The notes under the pieces: generated by a model
Told to the model about the DNA's origin: nothing
Databases searched by the model: none
The model's input: the letters and a program-made list of their open reading frames with translations, nothing else
Source of the DNA: Candidatus Accumulibacter regalis
GTDB lineage: Bacteria > Pseudomonadota > Gammaproteobacteria > Burkholderiales > Rhodocyclaceae
Direction: 5' to 3'
Length of the DNA stretch: 64,000 nt
NCBI GenBank assembly: GCA_000585075.1
Contig: JEMY01000004.1
Coordinates: 1 to 64,000, forward strand
Translations under genes and position numbers: made by a program
Shown here: positions 7,251 to 41,428 of the stretch, piece by piece
Position numbering within the stretch: position 1 is the stretch's first letter
How the letters are laid out: the number at the start of each line of letters is the position of its first letter

Positions 7251-8078
7251 TCAACGCTGGCACGCCGGACAGTAGAAAGTCGAACGACCGGCCTGACGAA
7301 GCACCCGTATCGGCGTCGCACAAACCGGGCAAGGCTCGCCCTGGCGATCATAGACTGCGCAAGAAAGCTGGAAGCAACCGGCACCGCCATCGCTGTGCAC
7401 GTAGTCGCGAACCGTGCTGCCGCCGGCGGCGATCGACGCGACGAGCGTCGCACGAATCGCCTGCGCCAGCAGCCGGTAGCGCTGCAGGCTGATCCTGCCG
7501 GCACGACGCAGGGGTGAAATACCGGCGCGAAAAAGGCTTTCGGCGGCATAGATGTTACCGATGCCGACGACCAGATGGCTGTCCATCAGCAGCGGCTTCA
7601 CCGGCATCCGCCGCCCGCGCGTGGCCGCATAAAGCCACTCGCCGGAGAAGCCATCGGCCAGCGGTTCCCTACCCAGCACAGCGAGCGCCGGATGGGTTTC
7701 GACGTCGACACCTTCGTGCCAGAGCAGCGCACCGAAGCGACGTGGGTCGCGCAGGCGCAGGACGGTATGCTTGAAAACCAGGTCCACGTGGTCGTGCTTC
7801 TGCGCCGGCGTCGCCGGCGGCACGAGGCGCAGACTGCCCGACATGCCGAGGTGGATCAGCAGCCAACCGCCGCCGCGACTGCTGGCGCAGTCGAGCAGCA
7901 GATACTTGCCGCGCCGTAGAATGGCGTCAACACGCAGGCCGGCGAGCCGCGCATCGAGACCGAGCGGGATCGCGTGACGCAAGGCCGGCGTGCGCACGAC
8001 CGCACCGACCAGGCGTCGCCCGGGCAAATAGGGAAGCAAACCCTGGCGACTCACTTCGACTTCAGGCAGTTCCGGCAT
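7251..8078 (-). CDS. mutM: Formamidopyrimidine-DNA glycosylase (Fpg/MutM)
   Basis: The 275-residue enzyme removes 8-oxoguanine and ring-opened purines and cleaves the resulting abasic site. It begins with the diagnostic MPELPEVE; the proline after Met is the catalytic nucleophile. The conserved lysine segment RRGKYLLLD follows, and the C-terminus is a zinc finger with two C-x2-C pairs (CPVC and CPAC). The start at 8078 is fixed by MPELPEVE; the 17-residue upstream extension of the open frame is spurious. It is divergent from the TPR gene at 8176. Length matches the family. Confidence 0.97.
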   Translation of the reverse strand: MPELPEVEVSRQGLLPYLPGRRLVGAVVRTPALRHAIPLGLDARLAGLRVDAILRRGKYLLLDCASSRGGGWLLIHLGMSGSLRLVPPATPAQKHDHVDLVFKHTVLRLRDPRRFGALLWHEGVDVETHPALAVLGREPLADGFSGEWLYAATRGRRMPVKPLLMDSHLVVGIGNIYAAESLFRAGISPLRRAGRISLQRYRLLAQAIRATLVASIAAGGSTVRDYVHSDGGAGCFQLSCAVYDRQGEPCPVCATPIRVLRQAGRSTFYCPACQR

Positions 8079-8175
8079 TGCTGCTACCCCGAAAAGTCCA
8101 TAACATGCGCAGCAGGAATTATGACGCAATCTCCCCCGTCAGCTCCTGCAACCGTTGGCAGCAAGCAAGGAAACC

Positions 8176-34421: not shown

Positions 34422-34974
34422 CAGCGCGTATTTTTCCTTCACCGCTTTCGGAGAGTGAAAACAATCGTTTCCTTCGGGGAACCCCTGCGCAGATCTTCGA
34501 CGATCGGTGGCGCTGGATGGCCAGTTCCTTGAAATCCGCAGCCCACTCCTGGTTCGGTCGCTCGACTTTCCACTGGCCTGGAAAGACCTTAATTCTACAT
34601 CAGCATTGGCCAGCGACATCTCGGGGCGCCCGAGCCGAGTGATCAACGAAAGTGTCGATTTCTTTGCCATCAAGTCGCATGAACCCGCGCGGCAGCTGCT
34701 TCGCCGCGTGCCGGGGCACAGCAAGCTCAATGAAGATCAGGCCTTGGCAGGCGCGCCGGAACAAGTCGAGGTCGGCCGGCGTAAGACGTGCACCGCCCGG
34801 CCGTAATCATCGGCACCAACCGGGTCCTCGCCGACAGGGGGTGTCGGCGAATGACGCTTCGCCCGGCGCACGTCTGCTGGACCATGCCGGGCATTCGCAA
34901 CGCCAGCAGGCAGCGTTTCGTGCCCCATCCACTGCCCACCGAAACGGGTGTAAATGGATGTAGTATTGGGCTTC
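34422..34974. other. Gene-free stretch at the left edge of the accessory island
   Basis: These 553 bases separate the divergent HD-GYP and Fic genes. Short frames exist on both strands but none has a ribosome site or a recognisable product. A minus-strand TAGAAT (near 34591-34596) could be a -10 for the HD-GYP gene. I see no att-like repeat or integrase. Confidence 0.4.
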
Positions 34975-36045
34975 ATGATCCGCTCCGACACCGTCCAGAT
35001 CACTCCAGAAATCCTGAGCCTCATCGCGGAAATCGATGAGTTCAAGGGTGCGTGGCGCGCGCTCGGCAGCTTGGCGCCGGATCGGCTCTCGGCATTGCGG
35101 CGGGTGGCGACCATCGAAAGCATCGGCTCATCGACGCGCATCGAGGGCAGCCAGCTTTCGGACCGCGAGGTCGAACGTTTGCTCTCCCGGCTGCAGATCA
35201 AGCCGTTCACCACGCGCGATGAGCAGGAGGTCGCCGGCTACGCCGATGTGATGGAGCGAGTGCTCTCGTCCGGGCCGGACATTGCCCTGACCGAGAACCA
35301 CATCCAGCAGTTGCACCGCGACTTGCTGACGCACAGCGAGAAAGACGCGTGGCACCGTGGAAGCTACAAGACCTCCTCCAACAGCGTGGCGGCGTTCGAC
35401 GACGATGGCAGGCAACTCGGCGTCGTATTCGAAACGGCGACGCCCTTCGACACCCCTCGCCTGATGAGCGAACTGGTGACCTGGTTCAATTGCGAGCGCG
35501 CGGTCTCCGGAACACGCCGGCTACACCCCTTGTTGCTCATCGGCGTGTGGGGCGTGGTGTTCCTGGAGATCCATCCGTTCCAGGACGGCAACGGCCGCCT
35601 GAGCCGTGTGCTGACCACCCTGTTGTTGCTGCAGGCTGGCTATGCCTACGTCCCTTACAGCTCACTCGAAAGTGTCATCGAGCGAAGCAAGGAAGCCTAT
35701 TACCTCGCCTTGCGCCAGACGCAGGGGACCATTCGCAGCGAGACGCCCGACTGGCAGCCGTGGCTCGACTTCTTCCTGCGCGCCGTGGCCGAACAGATGC
35801 GGCGGCTCGGCCGCAAGATCGAACGCGAGAAGCTGGTGCTCGCCACCCTGCCCGAGCTGTCGCTGCAAATCGCCGAGTTCGCACGCGAGCATGGCCGCAT
35901 CACCATGGGCGACGCGATCAGGCTCACCGGCAGCAACCGCAACACGCTAAAGCAGCACTTTCGCGCGCTGGTGGGACACGGGCATTTGAGCCTCCATGGC
36001 AGCGGGCGCGGCGTCTGGTATGAGCTGAGGTGGGAGCTTCCATGA
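34975..36045 (+). CDS. Fic-domain protein (AMPylase type, class II)
   Basis: The 356-residue protein has the full Fic active-site loop HPFQDGNGRLSR starting at His200, which in known members transfers AMP or another nucleotide moiety to target proteins. An N-terminal inhibitory helix SSTRIEG places the autoinhibitory Glu at about residue 57, so activity is probably switched off at rest. A C-terminal winged-helix-like part (about 290-350, ITMGDAIRLTGSNRNTLKQHFRALV) suggests DNA binding. ATG 34975 is preferred to 34954. Its stop overlaps the start of the HsdR-like stub (ATGA), an arrangement known from type I restriction loci that carry Fic genes. Confidence 0.88.
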   Translation: MIRSDTVQITPEILSLIAEIDEFKGAWRALGSLAPDRLSALRRVATIESIGSSTRIEGSQLSDREVERLLSRLQIKPFTTRDEQEVAGYADVMERVLSSGPDIALTENHIQQLHRDLLTHSEKDAWHRGSYKTSSNSVAAFDDDGRQLGVVFETATPFDTPRLMSELVTWFNCERAVSGTRRLHPLLLIGVWGVVFLEIHPFQDGNGRLSRVLTTLLLLQAGYAYVPYSSLESVIERSKEAYYLALRQTQGTIRSETPDWQPWLDFFLRAVAEQMRRLGRKIEREKLVLATLPELSLQIAEFAREHGRITMGDAIRLTGSNRNTLKQHFRALVGHGHLSLHGSGRGVWYELRWELP

Positions 36046-36184: not shown

Positions 36185-37150
36185 ATGAGCGACATCAAAC
36201 TCTTCCACGTGCAGTTAGGCAAAGCCACCGAACTGCAAGGCGATGCCTCGGATCTCGAAAGGCCACTGCAATCGCTGATCGAGGCCAACCTGGAAACGCT
36301 GCTTGGCATCCGCTTTCTGGCGACCGAATACTCCACCGGCAAGACGCACGCCGGCCGCATCGACTCGCTGGGCCTGGACGAGAACGATTGCCCAGTGATT
36401 CTCGAATACAAGCGCTCGGTTGGCGAAAACGTCATCAATCAGGGCTTGTTCTACCTCGACTGGTTGATGGACCACCAGGCCGAGTTCAAGCTGCTGGCGA
36501 TGGACAAGCTGGGCAAGCCAGCCGCCGACCGCATCGACTGGACTGCTCCCCGGCTGGTGTGCATCGCAGCAGACTTCACCAAGTACGACGGGCACGCGGT
36601 GCAGCAGATCAACCGCAATATCGAGCTGATTCGCTACCGTCGCTTTGGCGAGGAACTGTTGCTGTTGGAGCTGGCCAACGCCACCAGCGCAAACAACAGC
36701 CATGGCACCGCCATTAAGTCCGTCAAAGGACCCAAGGCGAAGGTGGTTGCAGCAAAATCGACCTCCGGTGACAGGGCGTTTGCCGACTGGCTGCCGCTGC
36801 TGCCGCCGCACCTCACGAACTTGCTCACATCACTGGAAGACTATGTCGTTTCGCTGGGTGACGACGTGCAGCGCAAGGAATTGAAGCTCTACCTGGCATT
36901 CAAGCGCTTGAAGAACTTCGCAACCGTGGTGGCGCAAAAGAACCGCCTATTGCTCTACCTGCACCTGAACCCCGAAAAGCTTTCGCTGCTTCCAGCTAAC
37001 GGCCGCGATGTGGGTCAGCAAGGACATTGGGGCACGGGCGACCTGGAGCTGTCGCTCACCAGTCAGGCCGACCTGGACACGGCGAAGCCGCTGATCCTGA
37101 TGTCTTACGAAGGCAGAGGGGCGGCGGGCACACATGCTACTGCCAGTTAA
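36185..37150 (+). CDS. DUF5655 protein with a PD-(D/E)XK nuclease-like N-terminus
   Basis: The 321-residue protein starts with a region resembling the NucS/DUF91 nuclease fold: AGRIDSLGLDENDCPVILEYKRS supplies the D ... E-x-K catalytic pattern at about residues 58-80. The C-terminal part (about 200-315, DDVQRKELKLYLAFKRLKNFATVVAQKNRLLLYLHL) looks like the DUF5655 domain. Proteins of this build are found in defence neighbourhoods, but their activity is not well established. It starts 17 bases after the HsdR stub, perhaps because a deletion joined them. Confidence 0.7.
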   Translation: MSDIKLFHVQLGKATELQGDASDLERPLQSLIEANLETLLGIRFLATEYSTGKTHAGRIDSLGLDENDCPVILEYKRSVGENVINQGLFYLDWLMDHQAEFKLLAMDKLGKPAADRIDWTAPRLVCIAADFTKYDGHAVQQINRNIELIRYRRFGEELLLLELANATSANNSHGTAIKSVKGPKAKVVAAKSTSGDRAFADWLPLLPPHLTNLLTSLEDYVVSLGDDVQRKELKLYLAFKRLKNFATVVAQKNRLLLYLHLNPEKLSLLPANGRDVGQQGHWGTGDLELSLTSQADLDTAKPLILMSYEGRGAAGTHATAS

Positions 37151-37308: not shown

Positions 37309-38706
37309 ATGCTGACCGAGCTACACATCAAGAATTTCAAGGCCTGGCAGGATACAGGACCGATTCGGCTTGCGCCATTGACAGTGATCTTTGGCGCCAA
37401 TAGCTCTGGCAAATCCAGCCTCGGTCAACTGGTGATCGCCTTGAAACAGACCGTTCAGTTAGCTGATCGAAAGCGCGCCCTTCACCTGGGCGACGAAAAC
37501 TCGCTGATCGATCTTGGCACCTTTGCCGACTGTCTTTTTGCCCATGATCTGAAGCAGTTGCTCGAGTTCTCCCTGCGCTGGCGTCTACCTTCGGCACTGA
37601 CCGTGAAGAATTCCCTGGATCCTGCGAAATCCTACCATGGCGACGAACTTCGGCTGTCAAGCACATTACGCGCCGATAAAGCCGAACAACCACAAACGAT
37701 CGCCTTCAGGTACGAACTGTTCGATGGGGAGAACGAGGTTCTCGCAGTCGGGCATCATGCTCGCGGCACCTCTCAGGCAAAACTCGAATGTGCCCCTTTG
37801 AAGCTGGTGCGAGCGGTCGGGCGCGGTTGGCCCGTAGAGCCGCCGGAAAAGTTCTACCGCTTCGCCGACCGTACACTGCTGCGCTACCAGAATGCGGACT
37901 TTCTTGCCGACTTTGCACTACAGACCGAGAGCATCCTGGAGCGAATGTATTTCCTCGGACCGCTGCGTCGACCCGCGCGCCGCGTCTATCAATGGTCGGG
38001 CGACACCCTCCCGGATGTCGGCGCGCAGGGCGAATACGCCATCCCTGCCCTGTTGGCAGCAACAGCGCAGGAACGCAAGCTCACTCGAGGACACCGGCAG
38101 CGCGTTCTGCGATTCGACGAGTTCATCGCGCGCTGGCTGGCCGATCTGGGAGTTATCCACAGCTTTACCGTTCAAGCGGTCGCCAAGGGCCGCAAGGAAT
38201 ACGAGGTCCTTGTAAGGACTCATCCGAAATCGCATCAGGTCAGGTTGACCGACGTGGGCTTCGGTGTCTCACAGGTTTTGCCGGCACTGGTGCAGGCGTT
38301 CTATGCCCCTCCTGGGTCGACAGTCTGGATGGAGCAACCCGAGATTCACTTGCACCCTCAGGCCCAGTCCAACCTGGCCGACGTGTTCATCAGCGCAGTG
38401 AAGTCTTACGAGGGCAGCGTCCCGCGCAACATGCAGCCGATCGTCGAAACGCATTCCGAACACTTTCTTGCGCGCCTCCAACGGCGTGTGGCCGAAGAAC
38501 AGATCAGCGCCGACGATGTGGCGATCTATTTCGTCAAGCGCGACGGCGCTGCGGCCCAGATGGACGCGCTGAAGCTGAACATATTCGGTGAGATCGAGAA
38601 CTGGCCCGATAACTTCTTCGGGGACGAGATGGGTGATATCGCAGCCCGCACAATGGCCGCATTAAGGCGCCAGGCCGCAACCCACAAGAATGGGGAACGC
38701 GGGTGA
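37309..38706 (+). CDS. AAA ATPase, OLD/RloA-like (DUF3696 type)
   Basis: The 465-residue ABC/SMC-type ATPase has Walker A IFGANSSGKSSLG (about residues 25-37), a signature-like region LTDVGFGVSQVLPALVQAF, Walker B WMEQPEIHLHPQAQ and the switch His in VETHSEHFLARLQRRVAE. The tail resembles DUF3696. There is no TOPRIM nuclease domain, unlike OLD proteins. Such ATPases act as sensors paired with a separate nuclease in several defence systems. The next gene (PIN-like) overlaps it by four bases (GTGA) and the RNA ligase follows in the same way, so the three are translationally coupled. All ATPase motifs are intact. Confidence 0.85.
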   Translation: MLTELHIKNFKAWQDTGPIRLAPLTVIFGANSSGKSSLGQLVIALKQTVQLADRKRALHLGDENSLIDLGTFADCLFAHDLKQLLEFSLRWRLPSALTVKNSLDPAKSYHGDELRLSSTLRADKAEQPQTIAFRYELFDGENEVLAVGHHARGTSQAKLECAPLKLVRAVGRGWPVEPPEKFYRFADRTLLRYQNADFLADFALQTESILERMYFLGPLRRPARRVYQWSGDTLPDVGAQGEYAIPALLAATAQERKLTRGHRQRVLRFDEFIARWLADLGVIHSFTVQAVAKGRKEYEVLVRTHPKSHQVRLTDVGFGVSQVLPALVQAFYAPPGSTVWMEQPEIHLHPQAQSNLADVFISAVKSYEGSVPRNMQPIVETHSEHFLARLQRRVAEEQISADDVAIYFVKRDGAAAQMDALKLNIFGEIENWPDNFFGDEMGDIAARTMAALRRQAATHKNGERG

Positions 38707-39242
38707 ACGCCGTAGTGATTGGTACCAACGTGTTGCTGGTCACCAATGGTAGTCATCCCGACGTTTCCGCAGCCTGCCGTAGCGAGTGCGTGACCCGGCT
38801 AGCGGCACGCATGAAAGGGGGCGAAGTGGTGATCGACGATGCCTACCGCATCCTGCGCGAGTACCAGAAAAAGACGCAACCCAACCAGCCCAAGGGTGCC
38901 GGTGACGTATTCCTCAAGTGGTTGCTGCAAAATGCCGCCAATCCGAAGCGCGTGCATCGGGTCGCACTCACCGAAAACCCGCCCGAAGAGTTCCAGGAGT
39001 TTCCCGACGCGAGGCTGCAGCGACATTTCGACGCCAGCGATCGCAAGTTCGCAGCCGTGACCCACGCGCACCCGGACAAACCTCCGATCTGGCAAGCGGC
39101 TGACTGCAAGTGGCTGGCGTGGTGGCCGCAACTTCAGGCCTGCGGTGTCAAGGTAGAGTTCCTCTGCCCATTGGACGTGCAACAGGTCTACGCGGCAAAA
39201 TTCCCTAACCGGGAAGCGCCGGGCCTGCCAGACGGCGCATGA
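38703..39242 (+). CDS. PIN-like nuclease domain protein
   Basis: The 179-residue protein looks like a PIN-fold ribonuclease. The first strand is VVIGTNVLLVTNG, followed by VIDDAYRILREYQ with the second acidic residue, DASDRKFAAVTHAH with the third, and QAADCKWLAWWPQL with the fourth. The first catalytic Asp expected in the strand (D-T-N-V) is Gly7, so activity may be lost or altered. It starts with GTG inside the ATPase stop and its own stop overlaps the RNA ligase start. By position it would be the effector, with the ATPase as sensor. Confidence 0.65.
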   Translation: MNAVVIGTNVLLVTNGSHPDVSAACRSECVTRLAARMKGGEVVIDDAYRILREYQKKTQPNQPKGAGDVFLKWLLQNAANPKRVHRVALTENPPEEFQEFPDARLQRHFDASDRKFAAVTHAHPDKPPIWQAADCKWLAWWPQLQACGVKVEFLCPLDVQQVYAAKFPNREAPGLPDGA

Positions 39243-39925
39243 CCAACTTCTTCCGCTTTCCCCACACCCCGCATCTCGCCTGGCTGGGCACCGGTGAGCC
39301 GCGTGATGACAAGGTGTTGTCAGCGGCCGAGGCGAGGGCACTGCTCGATGCCACGGTCGTGGTCGAGGAAAAACTTGATGGTGCCAACCTGGGCCTCTCG
39401 GTCGGGCCTGACGGGCGGGTGCGCGCACAGAACCGCGGTCAGTACCTGCAACCACCGTTTGGCGGCCAATTCGCCCGCTTGAACGGGTGGCTAACAGCCC
39501 ACGAAGGCGCCTTGTTTGACGCCCTGGATACGCACCTAATTGCGTTTGGTGAATGGTGTACAGCGAGGCATTCGCTGGAGTACACCGCCCTGCCCGACTG
39601 GTGGCTGGTGTTCGATGTCTACGACCGCCGTGAGGGCCGCTTCTGGTGCACTCGCCGCCGTGACGAGTGGGCGCACGATCTCGGCCTGACAACAACACCC
39701 GCACTGTTGCGCGGTCAGACCGACCTGGCAACTTTGAAAGACACGCTGAACGAGCATCGCAGCCGCTACCGCGACGGGCCCATGGAGGGTGTGGTGATCC
39801 GCGTTGACGACGAGCACTGGTTACACCAGCGCGCCAAACTGGTCCGACCTGATTTTACACAGCAGATCGACCAGCACTGGCGCCGTAACGCACTGGTCTG
39901 GAATCACCTCGAACCGACGACATGA
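39239..39925 (+). CDS. ATP-dependent RNA ligase family protein
   Basis: The 228-residue protein has the nucleotidyltransferase-ligase motifs: VEEKLDGANLGLS (motif I, nucleophile Lys45), FGEWCTARHSLEY and WWLVFDVYDR (motif III region), EGVVIRVDDEHW (motif IV), and RAKLVRPDF (motif V). This matches the RNA_ligase (Rnl2-like) family; it is short, with no extra domain. RNA ligases seal tRNA or other RNA breaks. Being coupled by ATGA overlap to a PIN-like nuclease, it may repair or counteract RNA cleavage by that protein. Confidence 0.85.
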   Translation: MTNFFRFPHTPHLAWLGTGEPRDDKVLSAAEARALLDATVVVEEKLDGANLGLSVGPDGRVRAQNRGQYLQPPFGGQFARLNGWLTAHEGALFDALDTHLIAFGEWCTARHSLEYTALPDWWLVFDVYDRREGRFWCTRRRDEWAHDLGLTTTPALLRGQTDLATLKDTLNEHRSRYRDGPMEGVVIRVDDEHWLHQRAKLVRPDFTQQIDQHWRRNALVWNHLEPTT

Positions 39926-39944: not shown

Positions 39945-40325
39945 ATGAGACCACTGGACCGCACCCGCATCGAGAAGGCCGCCGACTGCGGTTTCGACCT
40001 CCCGCCGGCACTGCGAGAAAGCGGCTTGCTCCTTGCATCAACAAGGTTTCCCGAAACCGTCGAGGTACGCGTGACGAGCGGCACGCGTTTCGAGCTGAGT
40101 GTGAGCGATGCGAGCTTGCTGGAAGCCCTGCCGCTTGCACAAAATGGCTGGAAGCTCGCAGAAGGAATCCCGGCGCTGTACGCAGTGCTCGAACGGGCCG
40201 CAGCGACTGCTCGAACCATGCCAGATCGCGTCGCGGCACAGTTCCATCTGGCGACGAAGTCGATGCCGCGCTCGACGGAAGCCGAGCGCATGGCGCTTCA
40301 TCGTTCAGCGGTGTTAAGGCCGTGA
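39945..40325 (+). pseudogene. N-terminal part of an HNH endonuclease, catalytic domain missing
   Basis: The 126-codon frame (MRPLDRTRIEKAADCGFDLPPALRESG ...) resembles the N-terminal region of HNH_2-type restriction-like endonucleases. In such proteins the segment PRSTEAER is followed by a V-G-Q-x-x-F/Y-R stretch and then the HNH core. Here it continues HRSAVLRP and stops, with no HNH residues. This is family knowledge from memory. It lies between the RNA ligase and the second Fic gene, 19 bases after the former. Confidence 0.5.
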
Positions 40326-40378: not shown

Positions 40379-41428
40379 ATGAACACCCTCTGCCTCTTCG
40401 CCGCAGGCACCCTCCCCGTCCACCCCGCAGCGGCGTGGTATCTCGCCGACCTCGGAGAGTTTCGCGGCAAACAGGAGCTATATACTCGCCAATCGCCGCA
40501 GCGATTGAAGGCCTTGCGCGAACACGCGCTGATCGAAAGCGCGCTAGCGAGCAACCGCATCGAGGGGGTGTCGATCGAAGCGGCGCGGGTACGCGATGTG
40601 TTGGTGACGGCCCGACCCTTGTTTCGCGACCGCGACGAGGAGGAAGTACGCGGCTATCGCGATGCCCTGTCCTGGATACATCAGGCAGCACCCCGCATTG
40701 ACGGGGCTACGGTGCAGCGCCTGCACGCTCTGGCGCGTGGCGAGATCTGGGACGCAGGGCGCTACAAGGAAAGGGACGCCGACATCATCGAACGTTATCC
40801 GGATGGTCGCGAACGGGTGCGCTTTCGCACCGTGGCGGCGGCGGAAACAGCTGCCCGCATGGCGGCGCTGCTGACCGCCTGGCACGCTTGCCGGGAGGAA
40901 AGCTGGGTGCATCCGCTGATCGCGCTGGCGGCGTTCAATCTGGATTTCCTGTGCATTCATCCGTTCCGCGACGGCAATGGCCGCGTATCGCGCCTGCTGT
41001 GCCTGCTGCAAAGCTATCAACTGGGCTACGAAGTGGGGCGCTACATCAGCCTGGAACGTCTCATCGAGCAAAACAAGGACCGGTACTACGAGACCCTCGA
41101 GCAAAGTTCGCAGGGCTGGCATGAAGGCAGGCACGACCCGTGGCCATACATCAACTACCTGCTATCGATCCTGAAGACGGCTTATCGCGAGTTTGCCGAG
41201 CGCGTCGGCGAAACGAAAGCGCCGCGCGGCGCCAAGCGAGATCAGGTGCTGGCCGGGATTGAGCGCCTCGCCACCGAGGCCGGCGATTTCTCGATCAGCG
41301 CACTGAAACAAAGCTGTCCGGGCGTCGGCCGCGACATGGTGCGCCGGGTTCTTCGCGAGCAGCAGGCGGCGGGCGTAGTCGAGTGCAAGGGACGCGGTCC
41401 TGGGGCAAGCTGGGCGAAGAAGAGGTAA
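40379..41428 (+). CDS. Second Fic-domain protein
   Basis: The 349-residue Fic protein has the active-site loop HPFRDGNGRVSR starting at His194 and the N-terminal inhibitory segment SNRIEG with Glu at about residue 62. It is only distantly similar to the Fic protein at 34975, so it is not a tandem duplicate. The C-terminal third (FSISALKQSCPGVGRDMVRRVLREQQAAGVV) looks like a winged helix. ATG 40379 gives a complete N-terminus. It closes the accessory island; the formate dehydrogenase operon follows after 119 bases. Confidence 0.88.
   Translation: MNTLCLFAAGTLPVHPAAAWYLADLGEFRGKQELYTRQSPQRLKALREHALIESALASNRIEGVSIEAARVRDVLVTARPLFRDRDEEEVRGYRDALSWIHQAAPRIDGATVQRLHALARGEIWDAGRYKERDADIIERYPDGRERVRFRTVAAAETAARMAALLTAWHACREESWVHPLIALAAFNLDFLCIHPFRDGNGRVSRLLCLLQSYQLGYEVGRYISLERLIEQNKDRYYETLEQSSQGWHEGRHDPWPYINYLLSILKTAYREFAERVGETKAPRGAKRDQVLAGIERLATEAGDFSISALKQSCPGVGRDMVRRVLREQQAAGVVECKGRGPGASWAKKR

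Follow-up and report, generated by a model that had tools for sequence, protein, structure and literature searches.

Three overlapping genes in the stretch of DNA analysed here (the window: 64,000 nucleotides of Candidatus Accumulibacter regalis, contig JEMY01000004.1, positions 1 to 64,000) form, as judged from their arrangement and the motifs of their products, one operon for an ABC-type ATPase, a PIN-fold protein and an RNA ligase with a nick-sealing fold. The reading that we favour, with moderate confidence, is that of a HEC-03 pair of ATPase and PIN to which an RNA ligase has been added, so that an ATPase-gated RNase would arrest infected cells and the ligase would repair or limit the damage. 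A sequence-only reading of the same DNA had described the operon and interpreted it as a defence system in which the ligase limits self-damage; the operon observation is confirmed here, and its interpretation is partly supported.

The operon and its products

The three genes lie on the forward strand at 37309-38706, 38703-39242 and 39239-39925, and neighbours overlap by 4 bp each, just as expected from the earlier proposal that they are read as one unit; chance overlap was considered and rejected. The first gene encodes an AAA/ABC-type ATPase of 465 amino acids with a C-terminal DUF3696 domain that was assigned to HEC-03B with the help of PADLOC (model PDLC04148, E 3.2e-132) and Pfam (AAA_15, AAA_21 and DUF3696), and its ATPase motif residues are kept in at least 19 of 20 aligned rows.

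The second gene has a GTG start 4 bp into the ATPase gene and encodes a divergent PIN-fold protein of 179 amino acids that matches the PADLOC model HEC-03A (E 3.2e-24). When the PIN profile was run against the sequences of solved structures, nothing meaningful was returned, and Foldseek gave no match at E 0.001; the protein nevertheless has the PIN fold, so that its identification as a PIN ribonuclease from the letters alone was correct as far as family is concerned. The notion of a working cutter in this particular genome probably has to be given up. Residue 7 is aspartate in all 47 other rows of the underlying alignment (A3), as it is in every further relative with a readable N-terminus, and glycine in the window protein, which thus lacks one of the acidic metal-binding residues that its relatives share, although the acidic residues D45, E53, D110 and D113 are kept in 48 of 48 rows including its own. 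Because Gly7 replaces the first catalytic aspartate, the window PIN is probably impaired as a nuclease, with cutting predicted to be lost, and we reject an active PIN in the window genome. The rest of the protein is conserved, with four amino acid differences over 138 codons and a dN/dS of 0.23 relative to Candidatus Accumulibacter appositus (locus L002), a comparison from which residue 7 is absent as the L002 protein lacks its N-terminus. Between the same two genomes, the ligase differs at 20 of 228 amino acids (dN/dS 0.28) and the product of the adjacent Fic gene at 12 of 349 (dN/dS 0.09).

The third gene starts with an ATG 4 bp into the PIN gene and encodes an ATP-dependent RNA ligase of 228 amino acids that consists of the catalytic domain only, with Lys45 as the nucleophile. 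When examined against PF09414, it proved to contain the KxDG nucleophile and the remaining nucleotidyltransferase motifs. All 14 motif positions checked, including the last lysine, are invariant, and the nearest folds are nick-sealing RNA ligases, which agrees with the earlier identification of the protein; RNA sealing by this ligase is predicted from these fold neighbours. The alignment covers only part of the full-length Naegleria (about 340 amino acids) and T4 Rnl2 (about 318 amino acids) chains. None of the PADLOC models matched the ligase at E 0.1.

Recurrence of the gene order and mobility of the ligase

The distribution of the three genes was followed in three overlapping surveys, covering 398 genomes of the window's phylum (Pseudomonadota), 369 of its class and 230 of its order, and in the surroundings of the best 80 of at least 578 confirmed ligase relatives; the latter set is biased towards close relatives, and since some genomes are common to both, the surveys and the best 80 loci are not independent. 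The thresholds were E 1e-40 for the ATPase and E 0.001 for both PIN and ligase, and as only the top candidates per genome were scored, weaker ATPases could have escaped notice. On this basis, 15 of the 398 genomes of the phylum sample have the ATPase, and precisely these 15 have the PIN, the two genes being adjacent in every one of them. ATPase genes without the PIN gene, which would have spoken against a functional unit if they prevailed, thus did not occur in the 398 genomes at these thresholds, and 11 of the 15 loci also contained the ligase; the ATPase-PIN loci of four genomes (G016, G196, G350 and G077) have no adjoining ligase. Ligase matches were present in 17 of the 398 genomes. Eleven of these, the window included, are full-length (E < 1e-60) and show the order ATPase-PIN-ligase without exception, and the remainder comprises one partial match (G003) and five weaker ones with neither PIN nor ATPase alongside. 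The class sample yielded six matches, of which G430, a trio, was new, and the order sample nine, of which eight were new; all eight have the PIN gene and seven the ATPase gene, one locus being cut by a contig end, and the ATPase of G957 is divided over two overlapping open reading frames. When the surveys are pooled, a full-length ligase directly follows the PIN in 20 of 20 genomes and the full trio is present in 19 of them, the contig of the last one ending too early. Recurrence of the trio across genomes is therefore supported. Within the window's genus, a PIN match was obtained for seven of 28 genomes; five of these are full, a sixth is interrupted by a contig end and the seventh is a remnant.

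The picture obtained with the nearest relatives is similar in that the PIN gene lies directly upstream of the ligase gene in 76 of the best 80. We distinguish type A, the window type, with ATPases 53-82% identical to that of the window; type B, with ATPases of 33-44% identity and PINs of 20-28% identity to the window's (12 rows) that have the same motif residues; and type C, PIN-ligase pairs without any match to the ATPase profile at E 10 within the locus. Leaving out the window's own locus (L001), the 76 divide into 33 loci of type A, 25 of type B, 13 of type C and a further five (L002, L014, L032, L037 and L047) that are broken or lie at contig ends, L014 having been placed by eye. An ATPase was seen in 58 of the best 80 loci. 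Nine of the 13 type C loci are from organisms named Aquabacterium, and at least eight of the 13 adjoin the same divergent gene, read as exeA-like, which makes these loci look vertically inherited. Only three of the best 80 (L033, L042 and L067) have no PIN upstream, and L038, which stops at a contig end, was not judged. The ligase of L067 stands alone in a setting that we read as housekeeping; it is the only such case among the best 80, and a regular solitary occurrence of the ligase in housekeeping contexts, which had been named as a possible objection, is thus not what we found.

The ligase has, by the evidence of tree and sequence comparisons, moved between strongly diverged ATPase-PIN pairs. 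On a tree of 84 ligases, context A requires 15 changes and context B 11, and the well-supported (starred) branches alone force at least five changes each. Compared with means of 28 and 22 after shuffling, the context labels nevertheless remain clustered, which counts against our favoured reading. In 41 A-B pairs whose ligases are at least 72% identical, the median identity of the PINs is 26%, as opposed to 75% in 47 A-A pairs, a few of these values stemming from short local matches; in the pair L040 (type B) and L058 (type A), the ligases share 84% and the PINs 30% identity. Different partners also occur. In L042, genes for PD-T4-4 A and B (E 4.6e-203 and 2e-93) directly precede the same ligase, and in L033 (1453-4422), from Verrucomicrobiales, a PDC-S46 AAA_13 protein (E 1.2e-212) is followed by the ligase, each combination being represented by one locus. 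As the ligase is missing from four of 15 ATPase-PIN loci it is dispensable, and these patterns characterize it as a swappable accessory rather than an obligate subunit. The earlier idea of a fixed trio has to be corrected accordingly, and PIN-ligase pairs exist without an ATPase. The region of L042 (3996-8923) additionally encodes a 240-amino acid protein after PD-T4-4 and the ligase and, further on, an HNH_2 protein; a small C-terminal ligase fragment (7998-8159), about 1.3 kb past the full ligase, is perhaps the trace of an earlier copy.

Plasmids contribute to this distribution, which is patchy and partly plasmid-borne. Among 22 matching plasmid records, eight were examined and five of these carry the full trio: two from Aeromonas and one each from Azotobacter, Rhodococcus (Actinomycetota) and Tistrella, those of Aeromonas and Rhodococcus being conjugative. 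On one Aeromonas plasmid the ligase gene is split at IS256 copies and the ATPase and PIN genes read intact. Two of the eight contain distant ligases (30-33% identity) and no PIN. Both of these lie near an AAA ATPase gene: the one on a Pseudomonas aeruginosa plasmid (L087, 5956-7974) sits beside an HD + AAA_33 protein, possibly as a healing-sealing repair pair, and the other is on a Variovorax plasmid (L088, 4965-7458). A search of E. coli with the type B trio of Lelliottia gave no match. Eleven phage records contain a distant ligase, and as these reach 31% identity at best, the ligase has no close relative among them; six loci on viral contigs comprise one full trio (L136), one ligase at a contig start (L135) and four distant ligases.

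Relation to known systems and proposed mechanism

The adjacent ATPase and PIN genes of the window correspond to HEC-03B and HEC-03A of PADLOC-DB 2.0.0, and the ligase is the component without a counterpart there. Because the top-scoring HEC-03B loci of the survey (G196 and G016) have no ligase alongside, we regard the window locus as a three-gene variant of HEC-03. The earlier reading knew no name for the trio; its ATPase-PIN pair does have one. A description of the ATPase-PIN-ligase trio was not found in the literature searched, as judged from titles and the beginnings of abstracts. The trio may be mentioned in a survey by Burroughs and Aravind (2016) that deals with RNA-repair systems in conflicts. 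The main text of the PADLOC papers has no passage on HEC. In a passage of PMC12988326, HEC is explained as Hma-embedded candidate, HEC-06 is related to be among several with activity, and the candidates are attributed to a preprint (10.1101/2024.01.29.577857; Payne et al., 2024); PMC13356809 names HEC-03 once.

PARIS also combines an ABC-type ATPase with an RNase effector, and the window ATPase matches the AriA model (E 3.6e-23), but the effector is the Toprim protein AriB there and HEC-03A with its PIN fold here. Membership in PARIS was rejected for this reason. To our knowledge, a ligase is not among the components of PARIS. Cleavage by AriB leaves a 3'-OH, as confirmed in a passage of PMC12409363. 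VapBC shares the PIN fold, yet has a small antitoxin gene where the window operon, consisting of ATPase, PIN and ligase, has an enzyme, and a plain VapBC system was rejected since such an antitoxin gene is absent from the operon. Repair by the bacterial Pnkp1-Rnl-Hen1 system relies on end healing, whereas no end-healing gene (kinase or phosphatase) lies within the window operon. The proposed likeness is that this system repairs ribotoxin-cut RNA (PMC4411300, in part). PD-T4-4, which stems from a functional anti-phage selection according to a section of PMC9519451, is connected to our operon through the ligase of L042 and differs from it in both the ATPase and the second protein.

For the HEC-03-ligase operon, we propose the following sequence of events. 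The ATPase would sense infection or another insult and, in response, set free or activate the PIN ribonuclease. Structured cellular RNA, most likely tRNA, would then be cut by the PIN, so that translation would stop. The ligase, made from the same mRNA, would seal breaks with 3'-OH and 5'-phosphate ends; as an enzymatic antidote it would clear leaky cutting in healthy cells and let cells recover afterwards. Ligases of this type directly join such ends. We infer the sensing step, the RNA target, the end chemistry of the PIN, the antidote role and phage defence from the operon, the folds, the motifs, the linkage and the swapping; an anti-phage role in particular is proposed from genomic association. 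VapC products carry a 3'-OH and a 5'-phosphate as stated in part of a review (PMC7180214), and ends of this type would explain an operon that manages without a kinase or phosphatase gene. On the other hand, 5'-OH ends are given for VapC in a passage of PMC6459853; with these, end healing would be needed, which counts against direct sealing. That the ligase is absent from four of 15 loci and can be split by IS256 with ATPase and PIN intact is hard to reconcile with an antidote that is strictly required. The ligase may be important for certain RNA targets only, or may be supplied from elsewhere. A ligase that limits damage, as suggested at the outset, remains the idea that fits best.

A more far-reaching version, which we put forward only tentatively, sees PIN and ligase as a cut-and-reseal toxin-antidote pair, the antidote mending what the toxin has cut and not binding the toxin itself. 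This pair would later have acquired ATPase sensors, and the ligase would have been recruited by the unrelated ATPase defence modules PD-T4-4 and PDC-S46 as a general brake, resulting in reversible RNA-cutting immunity. If so, PD-T4-4 and PDC-S46 should also cut RNA and leave 3'-OH and 5'-phosphate ends. It is common to view tRNA-cutting immune nucleases as one-way suicide switches; if a sealer is conserved together with the cutter, some of them would be built to be reversible. The substrate of the ligase would then offer a ready assay for the RNA that is cut, and the end chemistry could be predicted for other ligase-bearing systems.

The nearest published idea that we found is HARP-Rnl3, in which a PIN nuclease is likewise linked to an ATP-dependent RNA ligase with a patchy distribution and for which the authors discuss a toxin-antitoxin relationship; according to the portions available of PMC12153264, it differs in its protein families (PIN_5 and TIGR01209), its typically 'bidirectional' genes and its occurrence in archaea and extremophiles, and these portions describe no ATPase. 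The window proteins fall outside these families, the ligase scoring 15.6 bits against TIGR01209 with a cut-off of 136.9. This published co-occurrence of PIN_5 nuclease and RNA ligase (PMC12153264, in part) lends some weight to an RNA maturation pair in which, as proposed for HARP and Rnl3, PIN and ligase would cut and join or circularize a specific cellular RNA with the ATPase as a regulator and immunity not the function. The 13 PIN-ligase loci without an ATPase-profile match, at least eight of them seemingly inherited vertically, point in the same direction. We nevertheless consider maturation unlikely, because the patchiness (15 of 398 genomes, seven of 28 in the genus), the carriage on plasmids and the association with PD-T4-4 and PDC-S46 are unexpected for a housekeeping step.

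It is less probable still that the ligase gene serves RNA repair in general, acting against damage from ribotoxins of phages or competitors and merely sharing mobile cassettes with its neighbours. That it also follows PD-T4-4 and PDC-S46, stands alone in one locus and is absent from four of 15 ATPase-PIN loci would suit such a role, but the position directly after the PIN gene in 76 of the best 80 relatives and in all 20 surveyed genomes, two sets that overlap, is tight for a passenger. Least probable by a small step is a nucleotidyltransferase that adenylates or otherwise modifies RNA ends or a protein, holding the PIN inactive or signalling and not sealing PIN cuts: the restriction to a catalytic domain and the strong adenylation and weak ligation reported in a passage on archaeal Rnl3 (PMC12153264) would fit, but the invariant ligase motifs down to the last lysine and the nick-sealing RNA ligases as nearest folds speak against it.

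Neighbouring genes and decay of the module

The earlier reading had proposed to check whether the trio lies near other defence genes. Both intact Aeromonas plasmid copies indeed have AbiE and Hok/Gef genes a few kb away. A general association did not emerge from a scan of the flanks with PADLOC (E 1e-20), for which the two longest coding-like open reading frames per locus were taken from 44 type A and B loci (88 frames) and compared with 40 frames from ten type C loci: relative to this control there was no clear defence enrichment, the gene calls being crude. Around type A and B loci, 76 families were matched, among the matches listed PLD-helicase, type I/II methyltransferases, BrxH-like helicases and mad2 (two members each) and RtcR-like regulators (three members); around type C loci there were 19 families, with DpdE/ZorD-like helicases (one member each) and mad3 (three members, probably three ABC transporters).

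Directly downstream of the ligase, positions 39945-40325 on the forward strand hold the remnant of a truncated HNH_2 endonuclease gene. By blastn it corresponds to the N-terminal part of a gene that is longer in L002; compared with that locus, about 330 bp have been deleted in the window, and with them the C-terminal half of the gene. The L002 copy matches HNH_2 (E 1.7e-12) and the window fragment has no Pfam match. In 12 of the best 80 loci, the ligase is followed within about 300 bp by an HNH match (partial in two of the 12), and HNH is a possible fourth partner of the module. In G755 (L151, 5742-7503), from the same genus, a deletion has left about 23 PIN residues and 89 ligase residues behind an intact-reading ATPase. 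The module decays readily in the window's genus.

Upstream of the ATPase gene, positions 36185-37150 encode a PDC-S18 candidate (PADLOC E 3.9e-139) with a DUF5655 domain and a sub-threshold NucS-like match. Two Fic-domain proteins (34954-36045 and 40379-41428), both SoFic-like and about 29% identical to each other, flank the cluster of PDC-S18 and HEC-03-ligase genes.
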